Shown: piece by piece, positions 14,111 to 37,943 of the stretch
How the letters are laid out: every line of letters starts with the position of its first letter
How positions within the stretch are numbered: position 1 is the stretch's first letter
Source of the DNA: Coleophoma eucalyptorum
Taxonomy: Eukaryota; Ascomycota; Leotiomycetes; Helotiales; Dermateaceae
Assembly: GCA_026120035.1 (NCBI GenBank)
Contig: JALRME010000056.1
Coordinates: 1 to 64,000, forward strand
Direction: 5' to 3'
DNA length: 64,000 nucleotides
Translations under genes and position numbers: made by a program
The notes under the pieces: model-generated
Told to the model about the DNA's origin: nothing
Seen by the model: the letters and a program-made list of their open reading frames with translations, nothing else
Databases searched by the model: none

Positions 14111-15262
14111 TTACTCTGGTTTACGTGTGGTTGTAGAATCATGCAGATTCTTGATACCAATACCAGTAGCAGCCGTTGTTCCAGCATCAATAGGTAGAAT
14201 GACACCCGTTACCCACCGAGCCAGGTCACTGGCTAAATATCTGACTGCACTGCCAACATCCCATCCATTTCCTTCAGTACCAAGCAGACTTCGTGCTCTT
14301 CGTGCTTCCCGTTCATTCTCACTCATACTGTTCTTCCCAGCATACATCATCGGCGTATAAACCATCCCTGTCCAGCGGATATCAGCATACTGCGCAAATA
14401 GTAAAATACATGAGAATAACTTACCAGGACAGACACAATTTACTCTAATTCGATCAAGCGCATGATTCGCAGCCATTGCACGTGTCATGTTGACAACTGC
14501 ACCTTTGCTGGTCGGGTAGAGAATGTTGGGAGTTCCTCCCCTTAAGCCAGCAACACTGCCCATGTTCACAATGCTGCCAGCGCACTGGCCCTCGTTTTTG
14601 ACCATCTCTGGAATACAATACTTGACCATTTGAACCATCGAGCCTACATTAATCTCCAAACCTTTCATAAACTCTGCCATATCAACCTCCAGAGATGAAC
14701 CTTGCGGCCCTGTGATGCCTACATTGTTCACCAGGATATCCAAGCGACCGTACTTTGAAATTGTTTTTTTCACTATCCGATTACAGTCTTCGGCCTTGGT
14801 AATATCTCCTGCAATGGCTATTGCAGTGCCGTTGCCAGCTTCCTCGATCATGTCGACTGTATGTTGTGCGAGGTCTCCCTTGAGGTCTACGCAGACAACA
14901 GAGCAGCTATCTTCTGCCAACAGAATTGCTGCAGCACGCCCATTTCCGATCCCCCCAGGCATAGCTCCAGCTCCTGTAATGATTGCCACCCGCCCTTTCA
15001 AAGAACGGGTTGGTCGACTAAGCTCTGGTGCCAGATTTGGTGACATTCTCATTCCTTTAAATCTCGCAAACAATATATTGTAAGGTGAGAAATTTCGTAG
15101 AGGATGTTTTTGATGCAACCTTTTTTTTGTGATATTGAGCAATCGACCGGTAGCTTCACTTGTTAGATATCTGCTTGTTTGAATAAATGTTCTCCGAGAG
15201 AACAGTGACAATTGAGTTTGTGTCGCCAGCCGAGATGGCCTATCTGTAAAAGATATCTTCAT
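14111..15262 (-). CDS. Short-chain dehydrogenase/reductase (SDR)
   Basis: NAD(P)-dependent alcohol/ketone oxidoreductase with a Rossmann fold. Seen: the cofactor motif TGAGAMPGGIGNGRA (from about residue 96), an NNVG block, a Ser block (GSVAGLRGG) and the catalytic YPTSK. One intron (14424-14368, 57 bases, GTAAGT...ACAG) restores the family pattern NCVCPGMVYTPMM. Because 57 is divisible by three it leaves the frame open. The spliced product is 364 residues. The first 70 residues are rich in Arg, Ser and Thr, without the domain, and could be a mitochondrial presequence. The conserved part would start at Met71 or Met73 (MSPNLAPEL), so the true start is uncertain. First gene of the putative catabolic cluster, where it could oxidise the alcohol freed by lactone opening or act on the starting alcohol. 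Confidence 0.88.
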   Translation of the reverse strand: MKISFTDRPSRLATQTQLSLFSRRTFIQTSRYLTSEATGRLLNITKKRLHQKHPLRNFSPYNILFARFKGMRMSPNLAPELSRPTRSLKGRVAIITGAGAMPGGIGNGRAAAILLAEDSCSVVCVDLKGDLAQHTVDMIEEAGNGTAIAIAGDITKAEDCNRIVKKTISKYGRLDILVNNVGITGPQGSSLEVDMAEFMKGLEINVGSMVQMVKYCIPEMVKNEGQCAGSIVNMGSVAGLRGGTPNILYPTSKGAVVNMTRAMAANHALDRIRVNCVCPGKLFSCILLFAQYADIRWTGMVYTPMMYAGKNSMSENEREARRARSLLGTEGNGWDVGSAVRYLASDLARWVTGVILPIDAGTTAATGIGIKNLHDSTTTRKPE

Positions 15263-15590
15263 GTCTCTCTGGGAGGCGGTACTTAAAGAATTAAGAAACG
15301 CTATGAAATTTTTTGGTTACTTGCCTTATTTAATCCCGCTATATATCATACATAAGATGCAGCTTCCATGTGTTAGGGAACTTATGCATGGCACATATTG
15401 CGGGGTTTCTAAACACGTGCGCTATGTTTAACCAAGGTTCAAGCTTCCCACAACAGGAATCGCCGAGCACCAACAGCCGCGGCCGAATCTAAAATTATGT
15501 CAATGCCGACACTAAACAGAGTTACTTTCTTTAGGCATAGATGCCATTAGTCATTGAAATAAGTTATTGTCTTTGAAATTTTTAATTTGG
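15263..15590. promoter_or_regulatory. SDR upstream region with a CreA/Mig1-like site
   Basis: Between the SDR start and the 3' end of the regulator gene. TTGCGGGGTT at 15398-15407 contains GCGGGG, which fits the CreA/Mig1 consensus SYGGRG, and has an AT-rich 5' flank as Mig1 sites do. Half-sites of the cluster palindrome (GCCGAG, GGCCGA) occur near 15462-15490, but no full copy. Confidence 0.45.
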
Positions 15591-18018
15591 CTAGGCACCA
15601 AAGTTGCTAAACAAGACATCATCAAAGCTTTCAAAAATGTTCTCATCAATTAACCCTTGCAAAAAGTTGTCTAGCACTCCCTCCAGCTGCCCGTACTGAT
15701 ACTTATTTCCCTCGGATTCATGAGACTGGCCCAAGGCAGCGATGTCTAATGGTTTTTGATTGCTTAATTGGTCCCTTGAAGGCAAAGATACCGCTGAAGC
15801 GTTATTAACAGCCCCATTCTCCATAGACAGGCTAGCACGGGTAACAGCCCATTCAAGTACACGCGAAGACCATTTTGCATTCTTCCATCTCTCGCCCATC
15901 TCCCGAAAATAGGACAGTCCGGTATGAATCTGGGTCTTTGTGGTTATCCTTTGTGCATGGCTGGATGCAGGATCCAGTGCAATCTCGATCTGGAAAGCTA
16001 GCAGATTCGTCGCACATATTATCCTAATCTCCGAGTTAGTCAAATTTCGTCTTAAAAAAGGGAGGTGCAGCATAAGAATATCAACCACGAACAATGAAGG
16101 AGGGCAATATTGAATCACATCATGAACCATCGCTCTTCTTATAAGCGTGTCCAATTCAAACATGGAGCCGAGCAGTCGCTGTTTTGCCCAGGCTACTACT
16201 TCATGGTCTGATGGCTGTATTCGTTGTCGAATTAGTCGATAGAGAACACACTCCAGCCTATAGCTCATAGCCAGCAAGAAAATCGCCCAAATATTTGCGC
16301 TAGACCAATGAGTGATTCTCTCGACTAGCAACTCTCGTGGCAGAGAGCTTCGCCAGACCAATATCGAATCTGCAAGCTCATATGCCATTGCCAGATGGAG
16401 GTTTTCTGATATGAACAGTCGAAGGAATCGTGCCCCTAACACGCCAAATTTTTATGAGAGTTGAAGATGGATTTTACTTCAGTGGACGACAAACCTAATT
16501 GTGCTAACTTGCAATTTTCCATAAAGAAATGTTTATGAGTTCCAGTTACTGGAGGCAAAACTTTCTTCGCCCGCTCTGTCAATAACTCATCTACCCAGTC
16601 ATCTTCGTTGAGTGGTGCAGTATCTGCGTCCTCGTCTCTTAGTCGCCGAACGTTTTCAAAGCCAGATAGTGAAAACAACACGTCTCGTTGCTGTCTTAGT
16701 CATCAATCTATGACGCTCAAACTAAGTTTCAGTGCAATATATTACTAACAAAAATAAGCCACCATATCCGTCGGCAAAGCTTGTGAGTTGCTGCATCGAG
16801 ATCTCTTCTCAAATTTCTGTAAGGAAGTCAATCTAAAATCAGCCTACGCTTCATTTCTTAAGCCAAGTATTTAGAAATAGATAGTCGGGTTCCTTACTCT
16901 CGGTGAAAGCCCATTTGTGTTGCTATCCGAACGGCGTTGTTAAACCAAAATCTAAAATCTTTATCTGGGCTAAAGGAATTCTGAAATGAGCTGAGCAAAA
17001 TTGAACCCTGTAGCAAGCTCAGCTGTGCCTTCTCGCATCCAAAATCAAAAAGTAGTCTCGCTCTGGAAAAGAATTCTTTTTGCGCAGTGGTAACGTCTTC
17101 GTAACCTGCCTTTAATAATAGGTCAAGAGGAGCATAAGGAACGACGTTGGCTAGTATGGCGTTGAGAAGAAAGGAAGAGCAATTCTTGCGGTCATACTCT
17201 TCAAAGAACCAAACACGATCCAGTATTGGGGTGTATGGGTGGACATAAGTAAAGAAGAGTTGAAGTAACGAATCACTAAGGGTGAATATGTTATCATCGT
17301 GTGATTTAAGGATATAAAGGCGCATGACTAAGATAAACATACCAAATTTCCTGGGGCGGAAAGTCATGGACATGCTTAGCTTTCAAATAAGTTATGTCAG
17401 CCAGATCGAGCATTGAAAACTCTCTCTCTTTAACTGAAAACGTAATAGGTCCGGGAAGAGCTAGATGAATGAGCCTTTTGCGTTGTTGCTGGCCCATTGC
17501 CTCGCCAAGGACGGTTAGCGCATTCAATTGACTGAAATATTCAATGATATGTTGCCCTTCAGTCGGGCCGCATAATGTTGTAGTTCCCGGTGATGTATTG
17601 TCTTGCTCAGACATATTGTACAAGGTATGCAGGTGAGCATCGTCTTCTGAGGCCATGCACTGAACTGCAGTTGAAGAAGGGATACTATTCTCCTCGGGAC
17701 TAGGAAGAGATGCATCGCAGCCTTCGCTTGGCTGCCTTGATGAAGACTGGTAATTTTCAGAAACTCTTTTACGCTTATTTGAACTAACAAGTGCGTATTA
17801 GTTAGCCTGTTCATAGCATTGCAGGATGGAAATTCGAAGTACCCTTTGTCTCCCCGAGTTAACAAAATGCAGGAATCCGATCGGTCTTTAGAGACACAGC
17901 GTGTGCAGGGAGTACCGACAGATGCTGAGTCGCACCGTACCTTTCGGTTATGACAGGGAGCACAGGCAAATGGCTTCTTGCCCGACCGCATATATGGCAT
18001 TACCGTTGCCATGGCCAT
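15591..18018 (-). CDS. Zn2Cys6 transcription factor with fungal_trans domain (probable cluster regulator)
   Basis: Nuclear DNA-binding regulator. Six inferred exons keep frame: 18018-17843, 17783-17343, 17275-16898, 16816-16750, 16690-16495 and 16435-15591, giving 700 residues. The zinc cluster CAPCHNRKVRC...PCTRCVSKDRSDSC starts near residue 19 and is followed by a basic KRKR patch after intron 1. The middle homology region shows FFTYVHPYTPILDR, FRFWFNNAVRIATQMGFHRE, RRIWW and RDEDADTAPLNEDDW, the usual order in the PF04082 family, similar to cutinase-factor-type regulators. It sits inside the enzyme group. Dimeric Zn2Cys6 proteins bind inverted CGG half-sites, which the repeated TCGGNNCCGA palindromes of this cluster provide. 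That pairing is inference. Splice sites are by eye, and the donor of intron 5 (GTTTGT) is the least certain. Confidence 0.86.
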
Positions 18019-18591
18019 AATGCTCGTTGAATCCTGAGGTGATAGTGGCGATTGGATGACCCTGATCTTCCTGATTTCCTAGTATTGCTTTCGTGTCGGC
18101 TTTTGGAGAACCTCGAAGTCAGGCCATTTTTGCTCGGCGATGATAGAAAGCAGAAACAGTCTGGAGATAATGTTGTGGAAATGCTCGGCTATGGTATGTT
18201 TGCGGGGTGCGAATATGCGGGGTTGACACGTGATGGGTTATATGCCGAATCCCATGCTCAAATTTCGGGTATGCTCGTTTTATCATTATGGGACAAGGTA
18301 GAATTCCGAAGCAAGATACATGCGGAATTCGGAGCATGATCAGGATCTGAAAAGACTCCAGGCGCGAGAACAAATCTCTTTTACTCGCTGGCTTAGAATC
18401 TATAGTAATGTGTGAACACGCTTGTGAAACACGTCAGTTCAAACTGCATCCCTACATGCAACAGCTAAAATATATTGCCAAAAATATAAGTTAATATTTC
18501 AGTTATTGAAGCTAACTAATCCGTTCATATAACAACTCAAAGATAGAAAGTGTGTTTTTGTACTTTCTAGATTGCCCTTGTTTCTCATGCT
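18019..18591. promoter_or_regulatory. Regulator promoter with CreA/Mig1-like sites
   Basis: Between the start of the Zn2Cys6 gene and the 3' end of the transporter. It contains TGCGGGGTGC at 18201-18210 and ATGCGGGGTT at 18215-18224, two adjacent GCGGGG cores in the same direction. An inverted GCGGAATTC/GAATTCCG-like stretch lies near 18301-18335. No gene is seen. Paired GCGGGG sites are typical where CreA represses. Confidence 0.45.
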
Positions 18592-20571
18592 TTAAACCAC
18601 CTCCTCATGATGTTCCGAAGATGGCCCTTCCTTGCGAATAATGTTGAGGTCTCGAAGGACTTGTCCATCAGTGTCATCACCAGATGCGATTTTATTATCC
18701 AGCTTAGCCCTTTCCTCGGGCGTCAAGTGCGACAAATCAAGGGCAACCTCATCGCCGAACACTGCAGCGATTTCCTCAAGACTAAGCCCCTTGGTTTCAG
18801 GAAGGCGCCAGATTACTGGCAGGCCGACAGCTGGGATGATAATAAAAAGTAGATAATACTTCCACCCAATGTTAGCGAAGGCGGTAGACGCTGGCTCAGT
18901 ATAGGCTTGATAAATCCATCAGTTGAAGAACTTCAGTGGGAGTGGTCAGATCAATTACTTAGGGTCATTGCAAAGAGTCCAAAAATAGAAGCCGCAACTC
19001 CTTGAGCTCTCATGTTGGTCGGGAAGATCTCTGAACAGTATACGTAGCTGACTGCGTCGACGCTGGATGCGTAAAATGTAACAAACAAAAACAAAAAGAG
19101 CACAGCGAAGCCATTTCCGACCTTGTTTGCTGTGCCGGCAAAGCTTGCGACACATGCAGTAAAGCAGATGAGCATACAAATACAGCCGATCTAGAGTCTG
19201 AGGTTAGTGATTACGTCTAAATGACCATTGATTGAGGAACCGCATACAAATCCCAATGTCATCATTCTTACTCGCCCAAAGCGGTCAACAACTAAACTAG
19301 ACATCAAATTCAGTGTTGCTGCCCATGAAGTGTACAGAGAATATAGTAGTAGAGGCACGGATCCATAGAGGTCAAGGTTATTCCACAAAAGAATCTAATG
19401 GGGTCTTTAGAAATTTGGAGGACTGCAGCTTGGAGATTATGTATACCTGATAATTACTAGTCACAAGGACTCCAGTGCTTTGGGTAAGACATCTGATAGT
19501 ATCATGTTAGTATAGTTCCAACTCATAGGACGAGGTTCATACTGAACAAATAATCCAGAAAAGAAGCGCTTCCGGTTATGTGGATGCATGAGCATTTGCC
19601 ACAAGTTTTGGTCGCAATTTGCTTCCAACTCTAGTTGACGACGGATCTGCAGATATTCTTCTCGAGCAAAAATGTCACTTGGATCTTCTGAGTTTTTGTG
19701 TAGCTTCGTAAGTGTTTCTAGAGCCGCATCACCTCGGTCATTGATTACTAGCCATCTAGGTGATTCCGGAATCCAGAAAGACGCAATAAAAAGAATAGCA
19801 GGAGCCGCAACTAAGATTTGGTGAGAAAACGATTTGTATTCGTAAGGTCCAAATATTTATACCTTGCAGTAATAAGCAGAGGCGCCACTGAATTTCAGGG
19901 TTCGTTTCGAAGTAACAGCCGTAGCCGGTCCATGCAGCGAATGCCTTAGGGTCAGGATTAGATTTAAACTTAACTCCATTGATGATTTGCAACTCACATA
20001 GCCACTAACAACCAGAAAACCATGTGATCCAACCATTCTGCCTCTTTGCGCGGCTGGAGAAACCTCCGATTGATATACAGGTACAATGCAGTTTGCCATA
20101 CCCGCCCTAATGATTTTGAATCTACTGAATAAGATTAATGTGGATTGGAGTTTACTTACGCTACGCCACCGAAAAATCGACCGACCAAAAACATTGCGAT
20201 GTGAACTGCGGCGCCTTGAATGATAGCAGCCACCACAGCAATAGAGCATAATGTTTGAATGGCCCGTACACGGCCTATTTTATCCGCTAGCCATGCAACA
20301 AGTACACAGCCTATCATACCTCCACCAGCGAATAAGCCATTGGCCGCTACACATACGTCAGCCGATAGCTAATACGGAGGGATTTCATGTGATTCATACC
20401 TCCAATAATGGAAGCCGAATCACTTCCAGCTAAAGTGAGGTGAAAATATTTGAAGAAGAAAGGAAGCCCAAAGACGGATCCAATGATGGATGAGCTATAG
20501 CCATAGGTAAAAGAACCCAAGGCCACAGTGAAAATGATGATAAAATTGTAACTATTGCCTCTGTGTGACAT
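18592..20571 (-). CDS. MFS sugar-porter-family transporter (cluster transporter)
   Basis: Plasma-membrane transporter of the sugar porter family. Nine inferred exons keep frame: 20571-20400, 20346-20160, 20106-19998, 19944-19863, 19810-19543, 19492-19447, 19394-19248, 19190-18959 and 18905-18592, giving 518 residues. Family blocks in order are GSFTYGYSSSIIG, ADKIGRVRAIQ, GRFFGGVAAGM, VYQSEVSPAAQRGR, WIPESPRWLV, VDRFGRVRMM, YCSEIFPTNMRAQG and LPETKGLSLEEI. Without removal of the inferred introns several stops interrupt the gene. With them the family pattern is complete, so I judge it intact. It lies between the regulator and the acyl-CoA ligase, and its promoter carries the palindrome and two GCGGGG sites. 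It probably imports the pathway's substrate. Members also carry quinate, myo-inositol and other polyols, so the cargo may not be a sugar. Confidence 0.85.
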
Positions 20572-20755: not shown

Positions 20756-20767
20756 CTCGGTACCGAG
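20756..20767. promoter_or_regulatory. Cluster palindrome CTCGGTACCGAG
   Basis: Perfect 12-base palindrome, 185 bases upstream of the transporter start. Its core TCGG-NN-CCGA recurs in four other intergenic regions of the cluster. Inverted CGG half-sites are typical of dimeric Zn2Cys6 regulators. Confidence 0.6.
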
Positions 20768-21241: not shown

Positions 21242-23238
21242 TTATAATTTTCCACGAAGCTTCAACTCAGGAGATGGAAGAGCTCGCCTTATAACCTTCC
21301 CGCTGGGAGTTCGCGGCATAGAATCGATAAAGTATACTCCGCCGGTAAGCCATTTGTACGACGCAAATCTCTCCTTGATGAAGTCAAATACTTCTTCTGA
21401 GGTTACACTATTATTTTTCCGCACGACAAAAGCCCGTGGATACTCGTTCCCGTTCCTTCCATACCACTTAGTTAGCAAAAGGCGTTTCTAAATGGAAGCA
21501 TGTTAGGACTGGCTTATGCGTACACTTTTGCCCCTACAACTGCGACATCAATAATAGAGGGATGCGTCATAAGAGACGATTCCAGTTCAGCGGGTGCTAC
21601 CTGCAATCCTTTCACCTTAATCAATTCCTAGAATTATTTAGCCAAGATTGACTATAACATGAAATCAATAGGTAGCAAACCTTCAATCTGTCGATAATAT
21701 AGATGCAACCTCGTTTATCTATATATCCAATGTCGCCAGTGCGTAGCCAACGATAGCCGGATTCATGGACGATGGTATCTTTAGTCTCCTCGGGCTTTTT
21801 CCAGTACCCTTTCATGATATTAGGTCCAGCCACCCATATTTCCCCTACGGTTTCTTCCGTTGCAGAAGAGAAGTCTCGATCTGGGATGGGTACAATCCTT
21901 GCGGCACAGTTCGGGTGCAACCAACCGATGGATCTGCCATCATCCTCGTCATCTGGTGCAAAGCCCGTGACTGAACAAGTGGTCTCTGTCATACCCCATC
22001 CTTGTTTTACTTTGGTTTCAAGTCTGAGGTACTTTTTTGCCACTGCATTCCCAATCTGAGGATCTAAAGGAGCGGATCCGTTAGTGATATTTTCAACTGC
22101 TTTAAGATTGAATCGGGCCGGGTTTTTCTGTTTTGAGATCATGGAAAAAATTGTCGGAACTGCGTTCATGAAAGTAATTCGGTAGATGTCTAGATAAAGC
22201 AGGTATTTCTCAATGTTGAATTCAGGCACAATAAATACTTTAGCCCGGAGCCTTGGAGCGGTTAGAGCAAAATATGTTTGACCCTATGAAAGGCGTATTA
22301 GCAGGGTTAATAATTAATATATCTCAGTTGAAGCACATACAAAAGCATGATACATTGGTAGAACTGCCAACCATCTTTCACTTGAGGTATTAAGACGTTC
22401 TCTTCGCGCGTGACCAGCAGGTGTGTCTGCTGTTATGGCACGCTTGAATATAACTTGTTCAGTATTTGCAATCAGATTGTAGTGAGAGAGTTCAACCCCT
22501 TTAGGCAATCCAGTTGTTCTGCATCACCGTCAATAAAGTCCAACTAAAGATATTTTAATTGAACTGAGAACTGACCCGCTAGAATAATTAATCACGGCTG
22601 TCGTAGATTGTGCTTCCTCGATAGTGGTTATACGTCTCCATGACCAAGACACAACATCCTTGGGTTGACACATGAGGTCTGTCCATGATTTCAATTGGCT
22701 TGACACAATTCCAGTATGCTTTTCAGTGGGGTCATGGAGAAGATACACTTGTCTGCTTGCTAATCCTGCTTGAGCTGCCGCCTTGAATGCAGTATCCACT
22801 TTGTCGACGCCTGTGAAAATTATCTTTGCTCCAGAATCTCGCACTTGGTATTCCAATTCTAGGAGTTATAGCGGTTAGGAATTGTTCAAAAGAAATAGTA
22901 CAGAAAAATATACCAGAAACTGTGGCGGATGGTGACGCCGCTGTGAAAATACACCCAGCTGCATTTGCTGCCCAAATCAAGACAGGAAAGAAAAGCTGGT
23001 TCTTGGAGTACAAGAGAACTCTATCACCGTGCTCAAGACCGTGCATCTGCAAACCTCGAGCGAGCCGTTTGACTATAAGTTCAGCATCGGTAAGGCTGAA
23101 ATATCTTGAAGGATTGTTGGCATCAAAGTATTGAGGAGTTTCTCGAGAAGAGACCGTTCCAGAGGAGAAAACATAGGATGGTACATCTATGGCTGGTATG
23201 TCAACCGAGTATTGAGATTGGGCGATAGTTCGGGCCAT
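21242..23238 (-). CDS. AMP-dependent acyl-CoA ligase (4-coumarate:CoA ligase-like)
   Basis: Activates a carboxylic acid through an acyl-adenylate to its CoA ester. Six inferred exons keep frame: 23238-22914, 22858-22576, 22518-22341, 22283-21681, 21627-21526 and 21487-21242, giving 578 residues, a normal length. Motifs are [13 protein letters not shown] (phosphate-binding loop, rebuilt across intron 2), [21 protein letters not shown] and [20 protein letters not shown], plus the catalytic lysine region [10 protein letters not shown]. The protein ends GKL, close to a PTS1 peroxisome signal (SKL type), although Gly at the first position is not standard. Fungal relatives act on coumarate-like, medium-chain or hydroxylated acids. 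In this cluster it would activate the ring-opened acid for beta-oxidation. The exact acid is unknown. Confidence 0.88.
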
Positions 23239-23539
23239 TTTCAGGCTTAATGTTATTCAAATTTTGGAGCTTAATATGGTTTCCCTATACTGACAAGAGA
23301 ATTTCCGAGGACATGTGAAAAGGTATTCAATATTTCGATGGCAGTAAAAGCGTCGAAGTAAAGCCAAACTGAACCAATGCCCATATATTAAAAGCCGAGT
23401 AAACGGAATCACGTTTGAGAGATCTTCTACCGTACCAACATCTATTCTTACGATTGGCTGGGCCACTCCTATGTGGTGGGTTGGTGCCGGCCTATGGTAC
23501 AGCATGTCGGCATTTCCTGTGAGGGGTTCTTAAGTCTGG

Positions 23540-23549
23540 TCGGTGCCGA
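23540..23549. promoter_or_regulatory. Cluster palindrome core TCGGTGCCGA
   Basis: Exact TCGG-NN-CCGA core about 300 bases upstream of the acyl-CoA ligase start. The outer C...G pair present in the other four copies is missing (flanks GG and AG). The surrounding 23239-23860 has no supported gene. Confidence 0.5.
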
Positions 23550-23860
23550 AGTCCAAGCAGGGATTAATTTAATTCCCGACGTCAATCTTAGTAACCGTCG
23601 GTGTTTCGCTTGCTCAATAAACCCTCCCGTAGGCGGTCGGTGGAAGCGGATGCACCTTTGGAAGCGGGTGCACCCTGAAAATTTTGGTGGATTTATAATC
23701 GAAGATACTTAAACTATTGCGAGCAACGATGCAAGGTCAATAGAGAGGGTGGATTGAAGGTATCATTGACATTATAGAAAGAAGGTGAAGGTCTGCCTGG
23801 AGGTCTATTTACATGTAGGTGCCTGTCGCGTGATCACATGACCCCTTTCTTCTAACATAA

Positions 23861-27123: not shown

Positions 27124-28603
27124 CTAATATGTGGCAAGTGGCCAGTCGTTATAATTTTCATCTGTTGTTCTATATGGACCATAGTTAACCATTCCACCTC
27201 TATCATTAGTAGCAAATGGAATGCCCTTTGCAACACGAGTGACTAAGTCCTATGCCCAGTTTTTGTGTGAATAATTAAAGAAGCCTTCTGGACACTAGGT
27301 AAAGTCTTACCGGATTATAGATAAACGGCCGACCGAAAGTAATAAGATCAATCTTATCATCCTTGATCAGCTCCTCAACTTCTTCTACAGTGTACTCGTG
27401 ATTGACCATAAGCAATGTCTTGCTACCAGGATGCTTGATCAAACCTCCGAACACGTCCAGCGGCTCATAATTTGGTGGCAATTCTAGCCCTGCTGCTCTG
27501 GGAATCGACTTGAAATATTCGTCTTGGGATCTTCCCACCTGGCAGCCTCGCCGGGATAGGTTAATATAGCCTAGTTTTCGAGCCATCAGCTCCTTGATGA
27601 GGTAATCATAAGTCTCGCTCAATTCTTCGTATGATACAACTGAATCGTTATAGTCATCAGAGGGACATATCTTGATGCCAATTCGACCAGGTCCCCAGAC
27701 CTGGATGATTGTATCTAATACTTCAAGTACGAATCGACATCGATTCTCAACAGATCCCCCATATAAATCGTTCCGCTTATTAGAGTGGCTATACAGATGT
27801 AAGGGTTTATAAACAGTAATGGAGGAGAAAAGAAGGTCGCTACTCACGAGCAAAGGAAGTTATGGAGAAGATAGCCACTTTAAATCACTCACTTTAACTC
27901 ATCTTCATCGATCAAGGTCAAAATTTTACAAGCTTACCCTTGAGATAACAATTCGATACCGTCAAATCCAGCCTCTTTTGCCAGCATAACAGAATTCCTA
28001 TACTGTTCGATAATTACTTTGGGGTCCTCGATGGCGGTGATGGTCGTGGTGTGACCCTATGGGGAAAGATTTTGATCAGAGCACGGCGTTTTAAATTTTC
28101 ATTGGGCTACTTACAGGAGTACCCTTTATAACTCTAAATTTGCCGCCAGCCGCTGGTATTTTAGAAGGTGCCAACACTGGGTAGCCACTCTCTTTTAATT
28201 GCGGCATGTTTTCGTTTTGAATGCGGCCTATTGTTCCGTAGAGATTAGTAAGAAACTCAGCCCCCATCACGGTCTCGAAGTACATACCAGGATGCCATGG
28301 CTGGAAGAAAATTTTCCCCCCTTCTTTGTGAACTGCACTGGTCACCTTTTCCCAGGCTCGTGCATGGTCCTGGTTATACATCACCGGCGCGAAGGGCCAC
28401 TCGGCCCCATGTAGCGAAACAAATGTTCCCTCTGCAATGATCAGGCCGACACCATCCCTGGCTCGTACAGCGTAATGTTGAGAACTTGACTCGGTAGGTT
28501 TTCCGTTATCAATGCAGCGATTGCGTGTCATTGAGCCCATACAAATGCGGTTACGCAAATGAAGAGAGCCACCAAGGGTGACCGGGCGCAGGAGATTTGA
28601 CAT
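27124..28603 (-). CDS. Old Yellow Enzyme family NADH:flavin oxidoreductase (ene-reductase)
   Basis: FMN-dependent reductase that typically saturates C=C bonds next to a carbonyl. Five inferred exons keep frame: 28603-28115, 28056-27938, 27877-27848 (30 bases), 27788-27311 and 27249-27124, giving 413 residues, close to other family members. Blocks seen are LRPVTLGGSLHLRNRI, MTRNRC, FFQPWHPGM, AKEAGFDGIELLSQGGYLLHNFL (joined over two introns), DLYGGSVENRCRFVLEV, DLITFGRPFIYNP and the C-terminal NYGPYRTTDENYNDWP. The start MSNLLRP is chosen because it begins the family alignment. The open frame continues upstream to 29059 without homology. It is intact although RIP-damaged transposon ends about 60 bases past the stop. 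It is divergent from the monooxygenase, with which it would form reduce-then-oxidise steps. Confidence 0.9.
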
Positions 28604-29481
28604 GGCAGTGCTGGTTGGCAATACAATGATGTGATTATGTGTCGATTGAACAAAATGCAATTGAAAGGGTTCAAATCTTCTCGCACAAACTAGGTTTCTT
28701 TGAGTGTTCTTTCCACGTATCCTAGATTTACGTTTGCGATGCAGCGTGACCAGGTCGACGACTAGGCGAGCCTGGTGCAGAAGCGTATGCTGTACTTTAA
28801 TTGAAAACTTGTAAATGAATGGAAGGTCGAAAAAGACGGCACTGGGATTTTTAAAGTGGAAGGCAAGGTTGGAATGGTGAATATCATATTTTACCCCGCC
28901 TACTCTAGTCAAGAGGGACCAGATCCCCACCATTGCGGGGTTGTTGGAACCAGAAGCCGACGAACTGCGTGGGGTTTTGTCTATGGATCTATCATCCATC
29001 CCGCCATGCCCGAGCCGAATTTGGCGATGGCTGAAGACGCTCTCGGCACCGAGCGGCATTCATGGATGGAATGGATACCGAGTGCAATCGGTCATGTTGT
29101 CGGCATATCGACTCACCACGCACTGTTTCTCCTCTTTACACTTGTTTCTGACTCCATTTGCACATGTGTAGCCCAAGAGCTCTGCTTGGGTGCATTAGCC
29201 AACCAGAAGGAGGCGGCTCTATACACCCTCGGTAGCTGATGAGTATTGTGTCTGGATCATGCAATCTTCACCCGCCGATGGAGTCTTCAACTTGCAACCC
29301 TCGGTGTTAGATTCGGTCAGAAACACGTACGATAATATGGAAGCTGGCTTTGTCGACAGAGACTCAGATCACATATTAAGAGATACCACCAGTCCGTCAA
29401 AACCATCATCAAAACTTGAAGGCTCCATTAGCCTTGTATCTTCTACCTATCGATATTTTAAACGCTTTGAATAAATCAGTC
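28604..29481. promoter_or_regulatory. Divergent OYE / monooxygenase promoter
   Basis: An 878-base region shared by two divergent cluster genes. It carries TTGCGGGGTT (CreA/Mig1-like) at 28933-28942 and the perfect palindrome CTCGGCACCGAG at 29042-29053, near the middle. Open frames here (28856-29239 plus; the 5' part of 28091-29059 minus) have no recognisable content and are taken as non-coding. Confidence 0.55.
29042..29053. promoter_or_regulatory. Cluster palindrome CTCGGCACCGAG
   Basis: Near-perfect inverted repeat (differs from full symmetry only at the two central bases), 429 bases before the monooxygenase start and 439 bases before the OYE start. This is a good position for a regulator controlling both. 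Confidence 0.65.
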
Positions 29482-31284
29482 ATGCCTACCCTAGTTTCCG
29501 AACCAGCCATCCACACGAGCGGAACGAATGCAGTGCACAAAGATGAGAGCATACATACAAACGGTGTGAATACTTCTGTCTTCGACCATTCTGGAAGTGA
29601 TGTGAATTACAAAATCAGAGAAACGCCTATGGGCACGAAAAGACCCGTTAAGGTGATTTTCATGGGTATGGGTGCTGCGGGCATCAACTTTTCTTACCAT
29701 CTCGCACAACAAGCAAAAGATGTGGAGCTCTCTATTTACGAGAAAAATGACGATATAGGAGGAACATGGCTGGAAAATAAATACCCAGGCTGCGCCTGCG
29801 ATATTCCCAGTGTCGCCTACCAATTTAGCTGGCAACGGAAGCCTGATTGGTCGCACTACTACTCCGACTCGAAAGAAATCTACCGTTACTTTAAGAATAT
29901 CAGTGTGGATAACAATTTGGAGCGCCATGTCAAGTTTAGCCATAAAATCATAAATGCAGAGTGGCTCGATGGTGAAGGCAAGTGGAAAGTGACAGTAATG
30001 CGGAACAACAATCCATCTGATGTTTTCGATGAATATGCCGACTTCTTCCTGAATGGCGGAGGCTTTTTGAATGCTTGGAAGTGGCCAGACGTTAAGGGTC
30101 TGATGAATTTCCAAGGACCAAAGCTGCATAGCGCCAACTGGGATGAGAGTGTTGATCTTCAAGAAAAGAAGGTGCTCGTTGTTGGTGCCGGCAGCTCCGG
30201 TGTCCAAATTGTACCCGCCATCATTGACAAAGTCACACAACTCCATGTGGTTGCTCGATCCCCTACATGGATCACTGCTGGTTTCGCCCCTGCATACGCC
30301 GGTCCAAATGGACAGAACTTTGCATATTCCGAGGAGACGAGGAAAAAGTTCCGGGAAGATCCACAATTATACCTGTCGTACTGCAAAGGCATTGAATCAG
30401 AACTCAATCTCAGATTCCGAATCGCACTTAATGGTACCCCTGAGGCGATTGAAGCAAGAAAGTTTTCAATAAAAGAGATGCAACGCAAGCTAGCAGGAAA
30501 ACCAGAATTGATAGATAAACTTATGCCGAAGGATTTTGGCATTGGTTGTAGACGCCCAACTCCCGGGAATGGCTTCCTTGAAGCTCTTACTCAAGAAAAG
30601 ACCGTGGTGTGGACAGAGAACATCAAAGAAATCACCCCTACCGGATTTGTATCTCCCGATGGCCAGCATCATGATGTCGACGTGGTAATATGTGCCACAG
30701 GCTTCGACACGTCATTCCGTCCACAGTTTCCTATCATTTGTAACGGGAGGAACCTCCAAGATGACTTCACAACCGGAGACACCCTAGGTTATCTGGGGCT
30801 CAACCAGCCAGAAGTCCCAAATTATTTCTCTTTCAGTGGGCCCTATGGCCCCCTCGGACATGGTTCTGCTCTCCCAATGATTGAGGCATATACCAATTAT
30901 ATTCTCCAAGTTATTGAAAAGGTCCAAGCTGAGGATATCAAGAAGATCCAAGTGAAGCGTTCAGTCGCAGAACAATTCACTAAGCATGCAGACTTATATC
31001 TACAACGTACCGCATGGTCAGGTCCATGCAGCTCGTGGTTCAAAGCTGGACAAAAAGGCCGCAAGCCGGTCCTCTGGCCCGGTTCCCGCATCCATTACCT
31101 TATGGTTCTCCAGAAGCCTCGATTCGAAGATTATGAAATTGAGTATCTTTCCGGAAATGTATTCAACTTCCTCGGAGACGGGTTTGACGCGCGTGAATAT
31201 GACGGACGTGACTTGACATGGTATTACGGCTTGCTCAATAGCACAGATAAGCAGCCTGGATATTTTCCACCGCCTATGTTCTAA
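29482..31284 (+). CDS. Baeyer-Villiger-type flavin monooxygenase (class B)
   Basis: FAD- and NADPH-dependent oxygenase that inserts oxygen next to a ketone, giving an ester or lactone. Single exon of 600 residues from MPTLVSEPAIH; a Met 22 codons upstream is also in frame. Seen are the first Rossmann motif GMGAAG (residues 62-67), DIGGTWLENKYPGCACDIPS, the Baeyer-Villiger fingerprint FQGPKLHSANW (210-220, pattern FxGxxxHxxxW) and the second Rossmann motif GAGSSG (235-240). The fingerprint residue after Trp is Asp, as in part of the family, rather than Pro. The length and the roughly 50-residue N-terminal extension resemble cyclododecanone/steroid-type and 4-hydroxyacetophenone-type enzymes more than the short cyclohexanone type. 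It is the key enzyme of the proposed pathway. The ketone substrate cannot be read from sequence. Confidence 0.92.
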   Translation: MPTLVSEPAIHTSGTNAVHKDESIHTNGVNTSVFDHSGSDVNYKIRETPMGTKRPVKVIFMGMGAAGINFSYHLAQQAKDVELSIYEKNDDIGGTWLENKYPGCACDIPSVAYQFSWQRKPDWSHYYSDSKEIYRYFKNISVDNNLERHVKFSHKIINAEWLDGEGKWKVTVMRNNNPSDVFDEYADFFLNGGGFLNAWKWPDVKGLMNFQGPKLHSANWDESVDLQEKKVLVVGAGSSGVQIVPAIIDKVTQLHVVARSPTWITAGFAPAYAGPNGQNFAYSEETRKKFREDPQLYLSYCKGIESELNLRFRIALNGTPEAIEARKFSIKEMQRKLAGKPELIDKLMPKDFGIGCRRPTPGNGFLEALTQEKTVVWTENIKEITPTGFVSPDGQHHDVDVVICATGFDTSFRPQFPIICNGRNLQDDFTTGDTLGYLGLNQPEVPNYFSFSGPYGPLGHGSALPMIEAYTNYILQVIEKVQAEDIKKIQVKRSVAEQFTKHADLYLQRTAWSGPCSSWFKAGQKGRKPVLWPGSRIHYLMVLQKPRFEDYEIEYLSGNVFNFLGDGFDAREYDGRDLTWYYGLLNSTDKQPGYFPPPMF

Positions 31285-32360
31285 TTGTTTATTCACAGCA
31301 GTATTTTTTCATGGGTGATTAGTGGGCGCAGTCTCCTTAAATATATGTTTTTAGTTCCATTCAAAATTGTAACTACAAGGCTTCAGGGTTAGACTTTGTC
31401 AAGTTCACTTACATTACGGTCGCTCTCGAGTATTGAAGAGAAATGAATCACCTTAACAGTAAATGTGCCACTACATACCTCTGAGACTGTTTAAACTTTC
31501 AAAAAAAACCCCTCCTCATAAATCTTGCAGTTTCGTAAATATGCTACTGTCCTATCATAAACCACCTCCATATTCATCTCTAACGTATTTTATTAAACTT
31601 ATTAACCTTTGAGCTACTCATTGGGGTCTCATAAGACAGTCTTTTGAAATACAACCAACTCTATAGGCCAAGCATGCAAATACATCACCCATAAAATCAC
31701 AGGATCTAGTTATAGATACCAATACTGCTTTCTTCATTTTGGGGTTTCTAATTGCTCATGTTTTAAAAATATCTGAATAATCTACTTTATTTTTAGGGCT
31801 CGTTCTAATAATTACCCGTGAATTTATGTCGATCTATTTTAAATATTTGACTTATGGTATTTGTAATTTCAACCTTGGAGTTCTAAATGATATCTAACTT
31901 CGCAGATCAGCCACTTACAGTGTAGTTTCATGGCTCAACAGTGCTGGAGAAGAAATTGTGAAATAGGTAGCCACGCCAAGTAGCTTTTGAAGCAAGTTCT
32001 ATTAATAAGACTATGTAGAGCCGAGTAGTGAGAGTGCTTATCCGTAGCCAGACGTTGCCGCAGCTCGGTGCCGAGACTTATCACCGCGTAAAAAAAAATG
32101 GCTGTCAAATATTAGGTAAGTTACCTTGTTTAGTCACCTAGAAATAAATGCTACACATATAACTATACATAGATCGTCGTTGGTTGCTGCTTCCTAAGAC
32201 GGCTCCGCCTCCCACCACCTCCCTTGTTGAAGACAGAGACACTCCAATCACTCCATATCCCGAAACCCTTCTTTAAAAGTACATTTGTGGTATGTTACAA
32301 ATATTAAAGATAATCTAGATCGAAGAAAAATACGACAATATCGTAAAACAGGACTCTTAG
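31285..32360. other. Intergenic region upstream of the thioesterase
   Basis: About 1.1 kb, AT-rich on the left and without a supported gene. The palindrome at 32064-32075 lies 286 bases before the thioesterase start. The two flanking genes point the same way. Confidence 0.4.
32064..32075. promoter_or_regulatory. Cluster palindrome CTCGGTGCCGAG
   Basis: Fourth copy of CTCGG-NN-CCGAG, upstream of the thioesterase-like gene at 32361. Confidence 0.6.
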
Positions 32361-33452
32361 ATGGCTGTCCCCGCCCATACACAAGAATTCGAAGATGCTA
32401 TCACTATCACGCCTCTGTCCTTCAATGAATACTCGGTTAATCTCAGTTCAGCATGGTCGATAGGAAGTGGTATGTACCTGAAAACAATATGACACTCACA
32501 GTAATAAGTTTCGAGAGGGCTTTGAGTAACAATTATGGCAGTTCCCAATGGTGGATACATAACCGCCGTCCTTCATCGCCTGGCAACGACTCATTTTAAG
32601 CATACTCACCTACATCGCTACAAGTCAGATCAGATACCAATCAGCATGCAATTAAATTTCCTTCGCCGATCGTATGCAGGACTGGCATTATTGACTGTGC
32701 AGGATACCAAGTTAGGACAGAGAACTTCAACAATACACGTGACACTATCGCAACAAGATACATCATTACAATCGTCTCCTTCATCTCCTTCACCAAGAAA
32801 AGTTAAAGCGACGGGATACATTACAGTCTCGAGTTTGATACATAATATCGGAATCTCAATGCCATCAAACTGGACTGTTCATCCTCCTCCACCAAGTTCA
32901 TACCCTCCACAATTCGATGGAGAAGGCAATGAACAGTTAGACTTATCAAGCCCTTGGAGGAGAATCGTCATTCAGCACCCTGAGTTTCGTCGTGCAACAT
33001 GTCACACCGAAGCGTATGGACCAGCAGTCGGTCAGAAAGAACAAAGATATGGAATTACTGACCAGTGGGCGCGACTACGGCCGATTGGGGAAAGAGGTGG
33101 GCAAGGGAAATGGACAAACGAGGCAGTTGCGTATTTAACAGACATATTTCCAGAGGCGCTTGGAAGCTTGGAGAAGGCCTGTAACGAAAATCTAACTGAC
33201 ACTGGGGACAATGGGAAGAGAGTGGCGGTTCCATTTTGGTTCCCCACTGTGACTCTTAATATCGATTTTAAAAAGCCATTACCTGCCTCTGGAATTGAGT
33301 GGGTCTATAGCCGAGTTGTCATGAAGGCTATTCGTGGCGGCAGGACAGATATTGAAGTTGTTTTATTAGATGAGCAAGGCGAGATTATTGCTTTAGCGAC
33401 ACAAGTAGGATTGGTGATGAGTACGCGTCGCAATAGAAGAACCAAGATTTAA
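32361..33452 (+). CDS. Acyl-CoA thioesterase-like protein (double hotdog, 4HBT_3/TesB type)
   Basis: Predicted to hydrolyse a CoA thioester. Two inferred exons, 32361-32469 and 32542-33452 (intron GTATGT...GCAG), give 339 residues in frame. The join rebuilds SIGSVPNGGYITAVLHRLA, the first hotdog helix of TesB-like proteins (pattern PxGGYxAAxxLRA). The second half ends WVYSRVVMKAIRGGRTDIEVVLLDEQGEIIALATQ, cut here as family context: a beta-strand-rich second hotdog with a DE-GE-IALA segment typical of PF13622. No targeting signal is obvious. Next to an acyl-CoA ligase it could release a product acid, trim CoA esters or prevent CoA trapping. It may instead be a non-thioester hydrolase. Family assignment is good, but its role in the pathway is open. 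Confidence 0.8.
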
Positions 33453-33724: not shown

Positions 33725-34735
33725 TTATTCGAAAAAGGATTTTTGAGCTACGATCTTCTCGAAAACCTCCTTATCATGTCCAAAAATCAATTTGGCATTA
33801 AACAAACGTTGTAGCCTCTGAATCATTTGGAAACTTCTGAACCACGCAGTATGATCTCTTGCCAACCAGCCTTGTGGCTGTCCTAATTCGTAATTTTCGG
33901 TGACGTGGAACTGATCTGTCGTGAATATAAAAGTCCCATCCTTGTCAAGGTTGACTTGCATCGCACATAAGCCTGGGGTGTGACCTGGAGATAGATGCAG
34001 CGTGATACCTTGGAAGAGCTCGATATGCTCGTCTGAGAAGGTTTTCCACTTAAGTCTAGACAAATCCAAATAATCGGCCAAGTAGACGCCGAGATCCATT
34101 TCAGTCCCTACAGCCCAGCAGGCGTGCTTGAATTCTTCCTCGTGGACGTAAATTGGGACGTCGGTTCCAATAAAGTGCTCGAGGCCACCGGCATGATCAA
34201 GATGCAAGTGGCCACAGATGACGGCTTTGACATCCTTAATATCATTACCGGTAGCTTTGATTGCTGCTGGGAGTTTGTGGTGTTCTTCATATACTACCCG
34301 CGGAAATACATCGATCAAGGGCGGGCCCCATTTCTAGTTTTTAACGTTTAGCAACCCATCTCAATCATCAAGATAGTGACACGCTCAGGAACATACAACT
34401 TCAATATCTTCGGCACAGCCAGTCTCAAAAAGAATTAGCCCTTCTTGTGGATGTTCTATTAATGCAGCCATAGAGATAAGATTGCGACGTTTGCGCTCAG
34501 GGCTGCTGTCGCTTTGTGTGCTGGCGTTAGCACCTCTAAGGAGCCTGGCAGAGCAAAAGTTAGCCTAGTGGGGCATTTATTCTTCGGTATAATTTGGGGT
34601 ATTTTACCATCCTTCATCGCATTGCAATATTCCCAGGTTTAGCAAGTGCATCTTTGTGCCTGGTGGACATTTGAAGGCAGGGATATTGGCATTGACTAGC
34701 AACGAAGCCAAATCCGATGCTGGAATTGTAACCAT
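33725..34735 (-). CDS. Metallo-beta-lactamase-fold lactonase (AHL-lactonase-like)
   Basis: Zinc hydrolase of the family that includes quorum-sensing lactonases AiiA/AttM. Three inferred exons, 34735-34608, 34544-34397 and 34333-33725, keep frame and give 294 residues, slightly longer than the bacterial enzymes. Seen are the metal motif HLHLDH (residues 134-139) followed by AGG, a second His in SPGHTPG, an Asp in FTTDQFH (where family members have the bridging Asp) and a final His in FGHDKE. The N-terminal part, KMHLLNLGILQCDEGW and HPQEGLILFETGC, matches the family's first strands and is only seen after splicing. Most relatives open lactone rings. That fits the product of a Baeyer-Villiger enzyme acting on a cyclic ketone, which is the main reason to propose a lactone intermediate here. 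Confidence 0.88.
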
Positions 34736-35575: not shown

Positions 35576-36413
35576 TTAGACGGATTGGAATCCTGCTGAA
35601 TAGATCAAGTTCCAACCCCGAGCAACGAAGACTGAACTTGTTGTCAGAATCTTCTTCGTCCAGGGAGTCTCGCTAACCCCCCGACCGATATCAGTTGCAA
35701 ACCCATCTAGGCTTTCGAAGTCGTGAATTGCGATGAATTTTGGTGGCTCAGCACCTAATGTAAGCTCTGTGACAGGGCCGGTTTTATAACGAGTAGACCG
35801 CCGATAGCCTGGTATCTCGGCCAGCATATCGAGATGCTCTTCCTTATACCACCGTTGCAAATCATCGTCATCTGCGGGTTGCAATTCAACGGTGAGAATG
35901 GTAGGATTGCTAGCTGCTCATAGAGAATAATTAGCAAATCGGTACACGATGATAAATAGTTTTTAAATACTAACCATCACCCGAAGCCAAGGGATCGAAA
36001 CTTTGGATAAGGTTGTAGTTCCGCAAGTCGAAATTCTCCTTATCAACTTTTTTCTCGCCGGAAGTTTCATTCTTCTGGGAGAATGGTGAACGCAACTCGG
36101 GGATGCCAGTATATGCCTGAGATTTTAACAGTTCTGGGTGTTCGCTCTGGAATAACGCAAGATATTTCCGCGGAAACGGGTCTTTTGATGCAATGTCGAA
36201 GTCGTATGTTTCTCGGTAGAAAGCTATACGAGTCGCTGCCTTCGCTTCAATAAGTTTAGGAAACTGCTATCTGGTAAGCATTGGTTATCAACACTATATT
36301 CTAGTATGACGTTGACGGACATATTCGTTCACATGCCATTTTACCCAGGCATCTTCGCCGTTCGCTTCTCCTGTAGGCCGGAGGTTTGCATGAAGGAGAT
36401 ATTGTGAAGGCAT
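35576..36413 (-). CDS. EthD / dimeric alpha-beta barrel protein
   Basis: Small soluble protein, three inferred exons: 36413-36321, 36263-35975 and 35913-35576, 239 residues in frame. It has two similar halves: WHVNEYFPKLIEAKAATRIAFYRE (about 29-52, joined over intron 1) and WYKEEHLDMLAEIPGYRRSTRY in the second half. Both show the W-x(3)-EH-x(5)-PG/TR pattern of dimeric ferredoxin-like barrel proteins (EthD, DUF4286-like), so the protein is a tandem duplication of that fold. EthD is required for ethyl tert-butyl ether oxidation in bacteria. In fungi such proteins act as cyclases, dehydratases or helpers without a cofactor. It is divergent from the esterase, sharing a promoter with a perfect palindrome. 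The splice donor of intron 1 (GTCCGT) is unusual. The catalytic role is unknown. Confidence 0.75.
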
Positions 36414-36829
36414 TATGGATTATAGCCAGGGTCTGATTGATGTAAAATTCGAACAACAAATTGTCTTTGACCACTCATAAGACTGGTCCCCTCATGCTCT
36501 ATATTTATTTATTTTCAGACACCCGGCTAAAGATTGTGGGGTTTCCCCACAAAATCTGCTATGACTCGATTAGGTTTAGAGACCATACCCTCCACTTGTG
36601 TCTTCACCCGAGCCCTCGGCTAACTCATAAGTTACCAGTCTCGGCACCGAGAAATATATGAACCTTGATAATCATACCGAGACGTTGCTGCTACCTACTA
36701 TGTCCCTTCCGAATAGCGCCTCCCTTTTAAGCGGCTGTAGTAATAACTATTAAGCAGAGTGCCGTGACCTCTCCAGTTGTTTTTATGACATAGCTGGCCC
36801 ATATCTCTCAAGCTTCTCCACCAGTTAAG
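36414..36829. promoter_or_regulatory. Divergent EthD / esterase promoter with palindrome
   Basis: A 416-base shared promoter. It holds CTCGGCACCGAG at 36640-36651, a TTGTGGGGTT variant of the GCGGGG motif at 36534-36543 and the 15-base inverted repeat GTGGGGTTTCCCCAC at 36537-36551. Confidence 0.55.
36640..36651. promoter_or_regulatory. Cluster palindrome CTCGGCACCGAG
   Basis: Identical to the copy at 29042 and placed between two divergent cluster genes, 179 bases from the esterase start and 227 from the EthD start. Confidence 0.65.
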
Positions 36830-37943
36830 ATGGCCAACTTAATCTTGATGCTTTTGGCCTCCCCATTGCGTTCTCTTGGGGTCCTGTATTCATTCGTCGC
36901 CCTTTCTTCTCTGGCCATTGCAAAGCGGCTACTATTACCATATTTTCCCGTATATCAGTCCCTCCGCATCCAGCTCTTTCGCGCATACTTGATCGCCTCC
37001 AATGTACACTATCCACAGCTGATTCACCGTTTACCTGTTTCCGCAAATCCAACTCGAGCCAAACTCATTCAAACCCCAGACTTCAAAGGTTACATTATAC
37101 CAGGCACTGAGGATGTCTCCTCTGTGGTGACTGATAAGAGTCTCCGCAGTAGCTGTGTTATACTTTATGCACATGGCGGAGGGTACGCTCGTGGAGAGGC
37201 ACGCATGTACCTTCGATATATGGAGAGATGGGTAAAACTTGCCGATCGCCGTAGTCTTAATCTCGTCTTCCTGTCAGTTGAATACCGTAAGTATATGTTC
37301 TAGTTACATTTTAGTATTTTATTGACGCACCATTCTTGAAGCCTTGACAGATACCGCCGCTCACCCTGCACAACTTAACTGCTTCCTCTCTGCATATCGT
37401 TACTTGCTTGATATGCACGTTCCTCCCTCTCGCATCGTATTTATGGGAGATTCAGCAGGCGGAGGTCTCAGTATTCTGGCTGGTATAAATCTTCTGCAAT
37501 TTTCTATTCCCCAGCCTGCAGGGTATGTTCTAATTTCACCTTGGATTGATCATTCTGGCATATCATTCGAGGGTGGAAACGCTATGGTGGAGACAGACTA
37601 CCTGGTCAATGCCAATGCCATGGTCCCAATATTCAGCAAGTTATATATCAATGACATGCCTGCCACCTCACCAGAGGTAAATCCATTGTTTCACGAAGCA
37701 GATACCATAAAAGGACTGAGCAGACACCTAATATTAGTTGGTGCAGCAGAGTTTGCTTTGAACGATGCGTGTCGGTGGGCAGAGTTGTGTCAGAAGGCTT
37801 GTGTAGAATATAAGCTAGTCAAAGAATGGGCGCAGATGCATATCTATGCACTTGGCTCGAGTTGGCTGCCAACCTCCGTCCGAGACAAGACTGATAATAT
37901 CATCTTAGATTGGATAGAAGGCTGCTTAGACATCTCTCAGTAG
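36830..37943 (+). CDS. Alpha/beta hydrolase, hormone-sensitive-lipase family (esterase)
   Basis: Serine esterase. Two inferred exons, 36830-37286 and 37351-37943, give 349 residues. Seen are the oxyanion motif HGGG (residues 115-118), the nucleophile motif GDSAGG (185-190, Ser187), and a C-terminal Asp/His pair in EFALND and AQMHIYAL. Residues 1-40 include a hydrophobic segment (LILMLLASPLRSLGVLYSFVALSS in part), suggesting membrane anchoring, as in several fungal members. The family hydrolyses short esters and some lactones. In this cluster it could cleave an acyclic ester made by the monooxygenase or act with the lactonase. It is the last intact member on this side. Confidence 0.88.

Follow-up and report, generated by a model that had tools for sequence, protein, structure and literature searches.

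The question raised by a region of the Coleophoma eucalyptorum genome is whether ten neighbouring genes, among them those of an Old Yellow Enzyme (OYE)-family flavoprotein and a Baeyer-Villiger monooxygenase (BVMO), form a functional unit and, if so, for what kind of chemistry. The window analysed covers 64 kb from the beginning of contig C53 (JALRME010000056.1), in an assembly of 45.26 Mb and 101 contigs. An initial annotation had read the ten genes (positions 14111-37943) as a catabolic cluster for a cyclic, terpenoid-like ketone or enol, an interpretation that is partly supported here. The grouping of the genes is beyond chance, given a common promoter palindrome and the linkage of some of their relatives in other fungi, and it is reasonably likely that they constitute a fungal cluster for catabolism or detoxification, under local regulation and partly conserved elsewhere, with a central Baeyer-Villiger step on a ketone.

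Spliced gene models were built by reading the region, and classes were assigned with Pfam. In line with the claim of ten intact genes, every one of them yielded a complete reading frame after splicing, the introns being of GT-AG type and 50-81 nt long (Table 1). They encode a short-chain dehydrogenase/reductase (SDR), a Zn2Cys6 transcription factor, a major facilitator superfamily (MFS) transporter, an acyl-CoA ligase, the OYE, the BVMO, a thioesterase, a metallo-beta-lactamase (MBL)-fold lactonase, a protein described as 'EthD-like' and a serine esterase.

Examination of the promoters revealed a recurring palindrome, CTCGGYRCCGAG, with the core CGG-N2-CCG. Strict sites precede six of the ten genes (MFS, OYE, BVMO, thioesterase, 'EthD-like' and esterase), with a weaker site preceding the ligase gene bringing this to seven. 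Exact copies of CTCGGNNCCGAG occur in the window at 20756, 29042, 32064 and 36640 only. This pattern was found 29 times in the 45.26 Mb of the assembly, four of them inside a 15.9-kb span of the cluster, while a reversed control pattern was found 46 times, indicating that the motif is not generally common. Its YR form, CTCGGYRCCGAG, was present six times in the assembly, comprising the four cluster promoters, C14:209203 and C68:670371. Neither of the last two was accepted as a regulon member, as the former copy is situated within a DAO-family reading frame and the latter within a 766-codon open reading frame (ORF). The shorter pattern TCGGYRCCGA has 162 occurrences in the assembly and five in the window, all five in cluster promoters (the fifth being that upstream of the ligase gene).

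The motif was first picked by eye from a reading of the promoters, with enumeration and shuffling run as controls. Among all 5-mer inverted repeats with spacers of 0-20 in the nine intergenic stretches of the cluster, the palindrome was found four times and the runner-up twice. When these stretches (8,938 bases) were shuffled 300 times with dinucleotides preserved, no palindrome of any sequence came to be shared by four stretches, and one was shared by three in four of the shuffles. With motifs upstream of seven of its ten genes, the cluster is probably one regulon. The Zn2Cys6 transcription factor is the likely pathway regulator, and we infer that it is this protein which binds CTCGGYRCCGAG. 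The earlier proposal of a catabolism-like cluster with a regulator and transporter of its own is supported.

Linkage in other fungi was investigated by comparing the homologue lists of three genes only (BVMO, OYE and MBL) for common contigs, which were matched by length alone, and for locus tags. These lists hold the best 120 of 2505, 5338 and 590 matches, respectively, and their rows represent 90% clusters, hence missing entries carry little weight. Among the matches listed, close linkage was identified in Exophiala xenobiotica, in which OYE LTR06_011229 and BVMO LTR06_011231 lie on a 52.6-kb contig. Dactylonectria estremocensis was found to carry OYE, BVMO and MBL on one contig, with OYE and BVMO sharing a contig in D. 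macrodidyma, BVMO and MBL in Ilyonectria, and OYE and MBL on a 98-kb contig in Aspergillus keveii. Furthermore, residues 1-80 of a gene model from Plectosphaerella match the thioesterase (44% over 84 positions, E 1.5e-23) and the remainder matches the OYE (60.6%), a joined model that would be expected if the two genes adjoin. Some conserved co-localisation, the lack of which the initial annotation had named as refuting it, was found for BVMO, OYE, MBL and thioesterase genes in other fungi.

A number of observations weigh against a regulated, partly conserved catabolic cluster. A contig of 1.1-1.5 Mb held in common is not proof of adjacency, and in E. aquamarina the BVMO and OYE genes lie on one 4.47-Mb contig at a distance of approximately 300 locus tags and are not adjacent. 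Among the matches listed, BVMO and MBL were on separate contigs in A. nanangensis, Thyridium curvatum, Cadophora DSE1049 and Fonsecaea monophora, as were BVMO and OYE in Fusarium beomiforme, Kalmusia, Lasiodiplodia hormozganensis and Thozetella. Within the cluster itself, an AT-rich stretch at 24-27 kb divides the ligase from the OYE gene, no gene of beta-oxidation is found among the ten by family, and no motif site was found in the promoters of the SDR, regulator and MBL genes, making the outer limits of 14111-37943 less secure than the core of 18.6-37.9 kb. The MBL has paralogues of 68-69% at two C90 loci of the same genome as well as relatives in many fungi (72-73% in Coccidioides and Emmonsia), so that its family probably has roles beyond the cluster; the lactonase may be a passenger here.

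On the supporting side, a second locus of the same genome (C36:275.4-280.9 kb) was found to hold an OYE, a BVMO (~50%) and an esterase (28%) related to those of the cluster. Its OYE possesses the classical His/His loop, unlike the cluster OYE, and no CGGN2CCG was found in a 10-kb stretch there. This trio adjoins an ORF whose match to Fungal_trans is weak and under the cut-off. Neighbouring OYE and FMO genes on C28 were not counted as a further cluster owing to weak identities of 24-30%, nor was a locus on C17, where the BVMO is 25 kb away from an OYE fragment. At C56:40.3-43.4 kb, a BVMO relative lies beside two MBL N-terminal fragments. The GC content of C56 is approximately 0.40-0.58, mostly ~0.5, compared with ~0.43 for the window; judging from this base composition the assembly may be mixed, and nothing was therefore concluded from these neighbours.

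The most unusual member of the cluster is its OYE. Homologue, profile and alignment searches were performed with a 413-aa model retaining a 60-nt intron, the final model being of 393 aa; the active-site loop is the same in both, with residue numbers 20 lower in the latter. The Oxidored_FMN profile was matched by the 413-aa model over positions 2-340 of 342 (E 8.3e-60), and the 393-aa protein aligns without gaps over 392 aa to a D. estremocensis protein (73.5%). At the positions of His191 and Asn194 of OYE1, the cluster protein has Leu and Gly (loop LLSQGGY), with Tyr196 being kept. In an alignment of the query with the best 120 of 5338 homologues (121 rows), the His/Asn pair was retained in none of the 118 rows bearing a letter, the first position being Leu in 93, Ile in 23 and Pro in two, and the second Gly in all 118. 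The Gln between both positions is kept in 118 of the 121 rows, and the Tyr in 100 of the 108 rows with a letter there. Judged by these residues, the cluster OYE belongs to a subfamily without the substrate-orienting His/Asn pair. Nothing else encoded in the genome is close to it, the next match at full length reaching 34% and a short piece 47%.

Six modelled Ascochyta enzymes (ArOYE1-6) of three fungal classes share with the cluster OYE the fold, the Tyr and several contacts to FMN, and they retain a His/His-or-Asn/Tyr core at which the cluster subfamily has Leu or Ile and Gly (PMC4002455). Class V of the fungal OYEs is represented by ArOYE6 (PMC12002099, PMC8954901). Membership of the cluster OYE in this class was considered and dropped, as ArOYE6 keeps His196/His199/Tyr201 (PMC4002455).

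A control alignment with E. coli FadH placed MGSEGYL at the position of LSQGGYL. Both proteins have the start motif MGSM and a non-His/Asn loop followed by a conserved GYL, while FadH differs in being 672 aa long with an extra C-terminal part and in having Met/Glu in the loop where Leu/Gly are found here. As FadH lacks the His/Asn pair and has these loop and MGSM features in common with the cluster protein, the latter may act on a CoA-activated alkene. For the OYE, action on a non-classical activated alkene, possibly an enoyl- or dienoyl-CoA once the ligase has acted, appears more likely than a carvone-type ene-reduction preceding the BVMO step. Against such a role, besides the differing loop residues, the best solved matches of the OYE are NADPH2 dehydrogenase-like, glycerol trinitrate (GTN) reductase and XenB, which are classical OYEs, and N-ethylmaleimide reductase heads its NCBIfam matches, though below cut-off; the 60 best solved matches shown do not include FadH. 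A more far-reaching suggestion, which we put forward tentatively and regard as rather doubtful, is that the enzyme may represent an undescribed fungal subclass with a conserved L-L-x-Q-G-G-Y loop, namely a single-domain reductase of CoA-activated or unusual alkenes within a BVMO-lactonase-CoA ligase pathway with genes linked in several ascomycete orders.

Type I BVMOs possess the fingerprint FxGxxxHxxxW(P/D). The cluster BVMO was found to contain FQGPKLHSANWD at 210 along with two GxGxxG motifs (GMGAAG at 62 and GAGSSG at 235) and is by these motifs a type I enzyme. The strict pattern is not universal among its relatives, being present in 61 of 111 homologues over 540 aa (best 120 of 2505 listed). 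Its solved relatives are cyclohexanone, steroid and other monooxygenases, all distant, and some listed homologues are named 'MoxY' or 'steroid monooxygenase', names which fix no substrate.

The MBL has complete metal ligands (HLHLDH at 134, SPGHTPG at 207, FTTDQ at 229 and IFGHD at 275), with HxHxDH being shared by 85 of 86 homologues over 270 aa among the matches listed. Among solved structures the top match is 6cgy, deposited under the name 'Beta-lactamase' (E 5.6e-31), with N-acyl-homoserine lactonases, GcL among them, coming next (E 1.4e-27 to 1.9e-27). NCBIfam AhlS was matched at E 2.6e-35, below cut-off. The best match of the MBL is from Bisporella (80%), and the named homologues are fungal. 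The esterase contains the HGGG and GDSAGG motifs within an Abhydrolase_3 domain. The monoterpene epsilon-lactone hydrolase of Rhodococcus is itself of the GDXG family, and opening of a lactone could be performed by either the GDXG esterase or the MBL lactonase. The proposal that a lactone is opened here by a different fold was thus not upheld, with the GDSAGG/HGGG esterase being under the motif and the MBL being without it and having close paralogues elsewhere. The structures closest to the ligase are those of 4-coumarate-CoA ligases (4CL).

Nine of the ten class labels were backed by Pfam. The exception is the 'EthD-like' protein, for which no Pfam match was found at E<=0.001 and no match to EthD (PF07110) up to E 10, DUF4286 (E 0.0059, below cut-off) being the only one; of the 10 matches to EthD scored genome-wide, none lies on C53. 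A structure predicted from the single sequence for 111 residues was uninformative (pLDDT 34).

An assembly-wide profile search gave at least 65 ketoacyl synthase, at least 3 terpene synthase (PF19086, the only terpene-synthase family searched) and at least 49 condensation domain matches, all counts being lower bounds, and none of the matches scored lies on C53. No synthase match by Pfam was found in the 11 ORFs scanned of 16 long flanking ORFs listed. For the three domain families searched, the reported lack of a backbone synthase therefore stands.

From these protein families a course of events can be proposed. The Zn2Cys6 protein or a similar factor would bind CTCGGYRCCGAG, with the presence of substrate switching on the genes of the transporter, CoA ligase, OYE, BVMO, thioesterase, 'EthD-like' protein and esterase. 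The MFS protein would move the compound in or out, the SDR may make a ketone from an alcohol and the BVMO would convert the ketone to an ester or lactone, to be hydrolysed by the GDXG esterase and/or the MBL lactonase. The ligase would then form a CoA thioester for beta-oxidation, and the thioesterase would release CoA or the end acid. Of all these steps, the position of the OYE is the one most open to doubt. Gene structures, families, motif distribution, partial linkage in other fungi and active-site residues were observed directly; reaction order, substrate, the pairing of regulator and motif and location in the cell are inferred.

Other explanations of the locus were also considered. A chance neighbourhood of unrelated metabolic genes might be argued from the three of ten genes without the motif, the other copies of the MBL family and the abundance of OYE and BVMO genes (35 and 90 exon-level matches in the genome, respectively), but the concentration of the motif and the linkage in other fungi make this extremely improbable, and it is already contradicted for the seven-gene core. 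An MFS transporter and a local Zn2Cys6 regulator are also usual in biosynthetic clusters, which counts in favour of a cluster that tailors a secondary metabolite, or protects the producer from it, with the synthase encoded elsewhere in the genome, as does the naming of some of the closest listed BVMO relatives as MoxY, a BVMO of the aflatoxin pathway (PMC6315744). This is nonetheless unlikely, since the three searched synthase families are without a match on C53, the YR motif has its two remaining copies within open reading frames and not in a synthase promoter, and CoA ligase, thioesterase and lactonase together fit breakdown better.

Three further explanations differ in the compound that would be broken down. 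In one, oxygenation of an aryl alkyl ketone or chalcone-like enone would give an aryl ester, which the GDXG esterase would cleave, and the ligase would activate the resulting acid. The ligase is indeed 4CL-like, the esterase gene carries the motif, and genes for a BVMO, an SDR and an aryl-CoA ligase adjoin an aromatic catabolic cluster in Aspergillus terreus (PMC7842363). It is judged unlikely because Pfam places no ring dioxygenase among the ten genes and the solved BVMO relatives are the distant cyclohexanone and steroid monooxygenases. A carveol/carvone-type monoterpenoid route, in which the SDR would yield the enone, the OYE the saturated ketone and the BVMO the lactone ahead of lactonase and CoA ligase, appears quite improbable. 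Each of its enzyme types (SDR, OYE-family, BVMO, hydrolase and ligase) is encoded according to Pfam, the cluster OYE is overall closest to classical OYEs, the order of steps is documented for Rhodococcus (PMC4097962) and fungal OYEs of three classes have been assayed on R-carvone (PMC12002099). However, this order requires a classical ene-reductase, and the cluster OYE is without the His/Asn pair, in contrast to the fungal classes modelled (PMC4002455); the carveol/dihydrocarvone order of the initial annotation is therefore not supported. Pfam identified no P450 among the ten genes, and nothing in the sequence selects a monoterpene, or indeed any terpenoid, as had been suggested. An OYE and a 4-coumarate-CoA-ligase-like enzyme also feature in plant jasmonate chemistry, and breakdown of a cyclopentenone or cyclopentanone fatty acid of the jasmonate or 12-oxophytodienoate (OPDA) type, with ring opening by BVMO and lactonase, would accord with the 12-oxophytodienoate reductases (OPRs) among the solved OYE relatives, the closeness of the ligase to 4CL structures and the presence of a thioesterase. 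OPR-type enzymes, however, also use a His/Asn or His/His pair, the OPR matches rank under bacterial OYEs, and no such fungal pathway was found in the literature searched (titles and abstract starts), rendering it very improbable.

A catabolic or detoxification cluster centred on a Baeyer-Villiger step remains the preferred reading, and systems resembling it in part have been described. For some steps of the carveol route of Rhodococcus erythropolis DCL14 the enzyme class is a matter of general background. That route has SDR, OYE-type, BVMO, lactone hydrolase and CoA activation classes in common with the cluster (PMC4097962), and differs in being bacterial and in the cluster OYE being without the classical His/Asn pair. 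The route of Grosmannia clavigera, which Wang and co-workers are said to have described in 2014, reportedly includes an epoxide hydrolase, an enoyl-CoA hydratase and induced gene clusters. Two BVMOs have been implicated in limonene detoxification in this species (PMC8120277), the likeness lying in the breakdown of a defence-type compound by a fungus with BVMOs implicated (PMC8120277, PMC4097962); the C. eucalyptorum locus differs in bringing together genes of an OYE, a CoA ligase, a thioesterase, a lactonase and an esterase. The FDB1/FDB2 degradative clusters of Fusarium verticillioides share a metallo-beta-lactamase, an AMP-binding enzyme, a carboxylesterase and a fungal transcription factor, their substrate being a lactam/lactone (benzoxazolinone) (PMC10512309). 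The terms Baeyer-Villiger and Old Yellow are absent from the main text of that paper. The 3-hydroxyanthranilate/salicylate region of A. terreus has BVMO, SDR and aryl-CoA ligase in synteny, but belongs to an aromatic ring-cleavage cluster, and the available part of the source makes no mention of an OYE or lactonase (PMC7842363).

Novelty was accordingly found to be partial. No fungal cluster with this full gene set was found in the open-licence literature searched (titles and abstract starts), yet the kind is known from the G. clavigera BVMOs (PMC8120277). With BVMOs implicated in limonene detoxification and with detoxification or catabolic clusters of fungi already on record (PMC8120277, PMC4097962, PMC10512309, PMC7842363), the unusual OYE is the newest part. 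The physiological role of OYE1 has been termed a mystery (PMC4002455), and for two OYEs of Aspergillus niger the natural substrates are described as 'still unknown' (PMC8954901). A co-regulated, partly conserved cluster places one type of OYE in a pathway context and names its likely partners, by which substrate screening becomes small and directed, and the motif predicts the membership of genes. If a plant compound induces the cluster, this would explain a carbon-use or detoxification trait, and the cluster would supply linked BVMO, lactonase and reductase enzymes. Should the OYE subclass suggested above prove real, this would be the first natural catabolic pathway for a fungal OYE.

Table 1. 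Genes and promoter palindromes of the cluster (positions in the 64-kb window)
Feature	Position	Strand	Description
SDR (adh_short_C2)	14111..15262	-	2 exons, 364 aa from outer ATG; NNVG, S and YxxxK residues present
Zn2Cys6 transcription factor (Zn_clus + Fungal_trans)	15591..18018	-	6 exons, 700 aa
MFS transporter, sugar-porter family (Sugar_tr)	18592..20571	-	9 exons, 518 aa
Palindrome CTCGGTACCGAG	20756..20767		185 bp upstream of MFS start
Acyl-CoA ligase (AMP-binding)	21242..23238	-	6 exons, 571 aa, C-terminal GKL
Weaker palindrome copy GTCGGTGCCGAA, 10/12	23539..23550		301 bp upstream of ligase start
Old Yellow Enzyme-family flavoprotein (Oxidored_FMN)	27124..28603	-	6 exons, 393 aa
Palindrome CTCGGCACCGAG	29042..29053		Between divergent OYE and BVMO genes
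Type I Baeyer-Villiger monooxygenase, by motifs (FMO-like BVMO)	29482..31284	+	Single exon, 600 aa
Palindrome CTCGGTGCCGAG	32064..32075		297 bp upstream of thioesterase start
TesB-like acyl-CoA thioesterase (4HBT_3 + 4HBT_3C)	32361..33452	+	2 exons, 339 aa
MBL-fold lactonase, AHL-lactonase group (Lactamase_B)	33725..34735	-	3 exons, 294 aa
'EthD-like' protein, family label unconfirmed	35576..36413	-	3 exons, 239 aa
Palindrome CTCGGCACCGAG	36640..36651		Between divergent 'EthD-like' and esterase genes
HSL/GDXG-type serine esterase (Abhydrolase_3)	36830..37943	+	2 exons, 352 aa

Scans of the window with Rfam and for tRNA genes were empty. AT-rich stretches (GC 0.33-0.37) resembling decayed repeats were identified at 24000-27100 and 1-8000 of the window, that at the contig end having a weak aspartyl-protease match (below cut-off). 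To the left of the cluster lies a second sugar-porter MFS gene (~8667-10467, minus strand) of 26-32% identity, by stretch, to the cluster MFS. It was rejected as a member of the cluster on account of this identity and its being without the strict motif, a one-mismatch copy at 9878 being inside its coding region. The SDR possesses a long basic, Ser-rich N-terminal stretch ahead of the Rossmann fold, which could be an organelle-targeting sequence, with inner ATGs at ~15052 and ~15046 as alternative starts.

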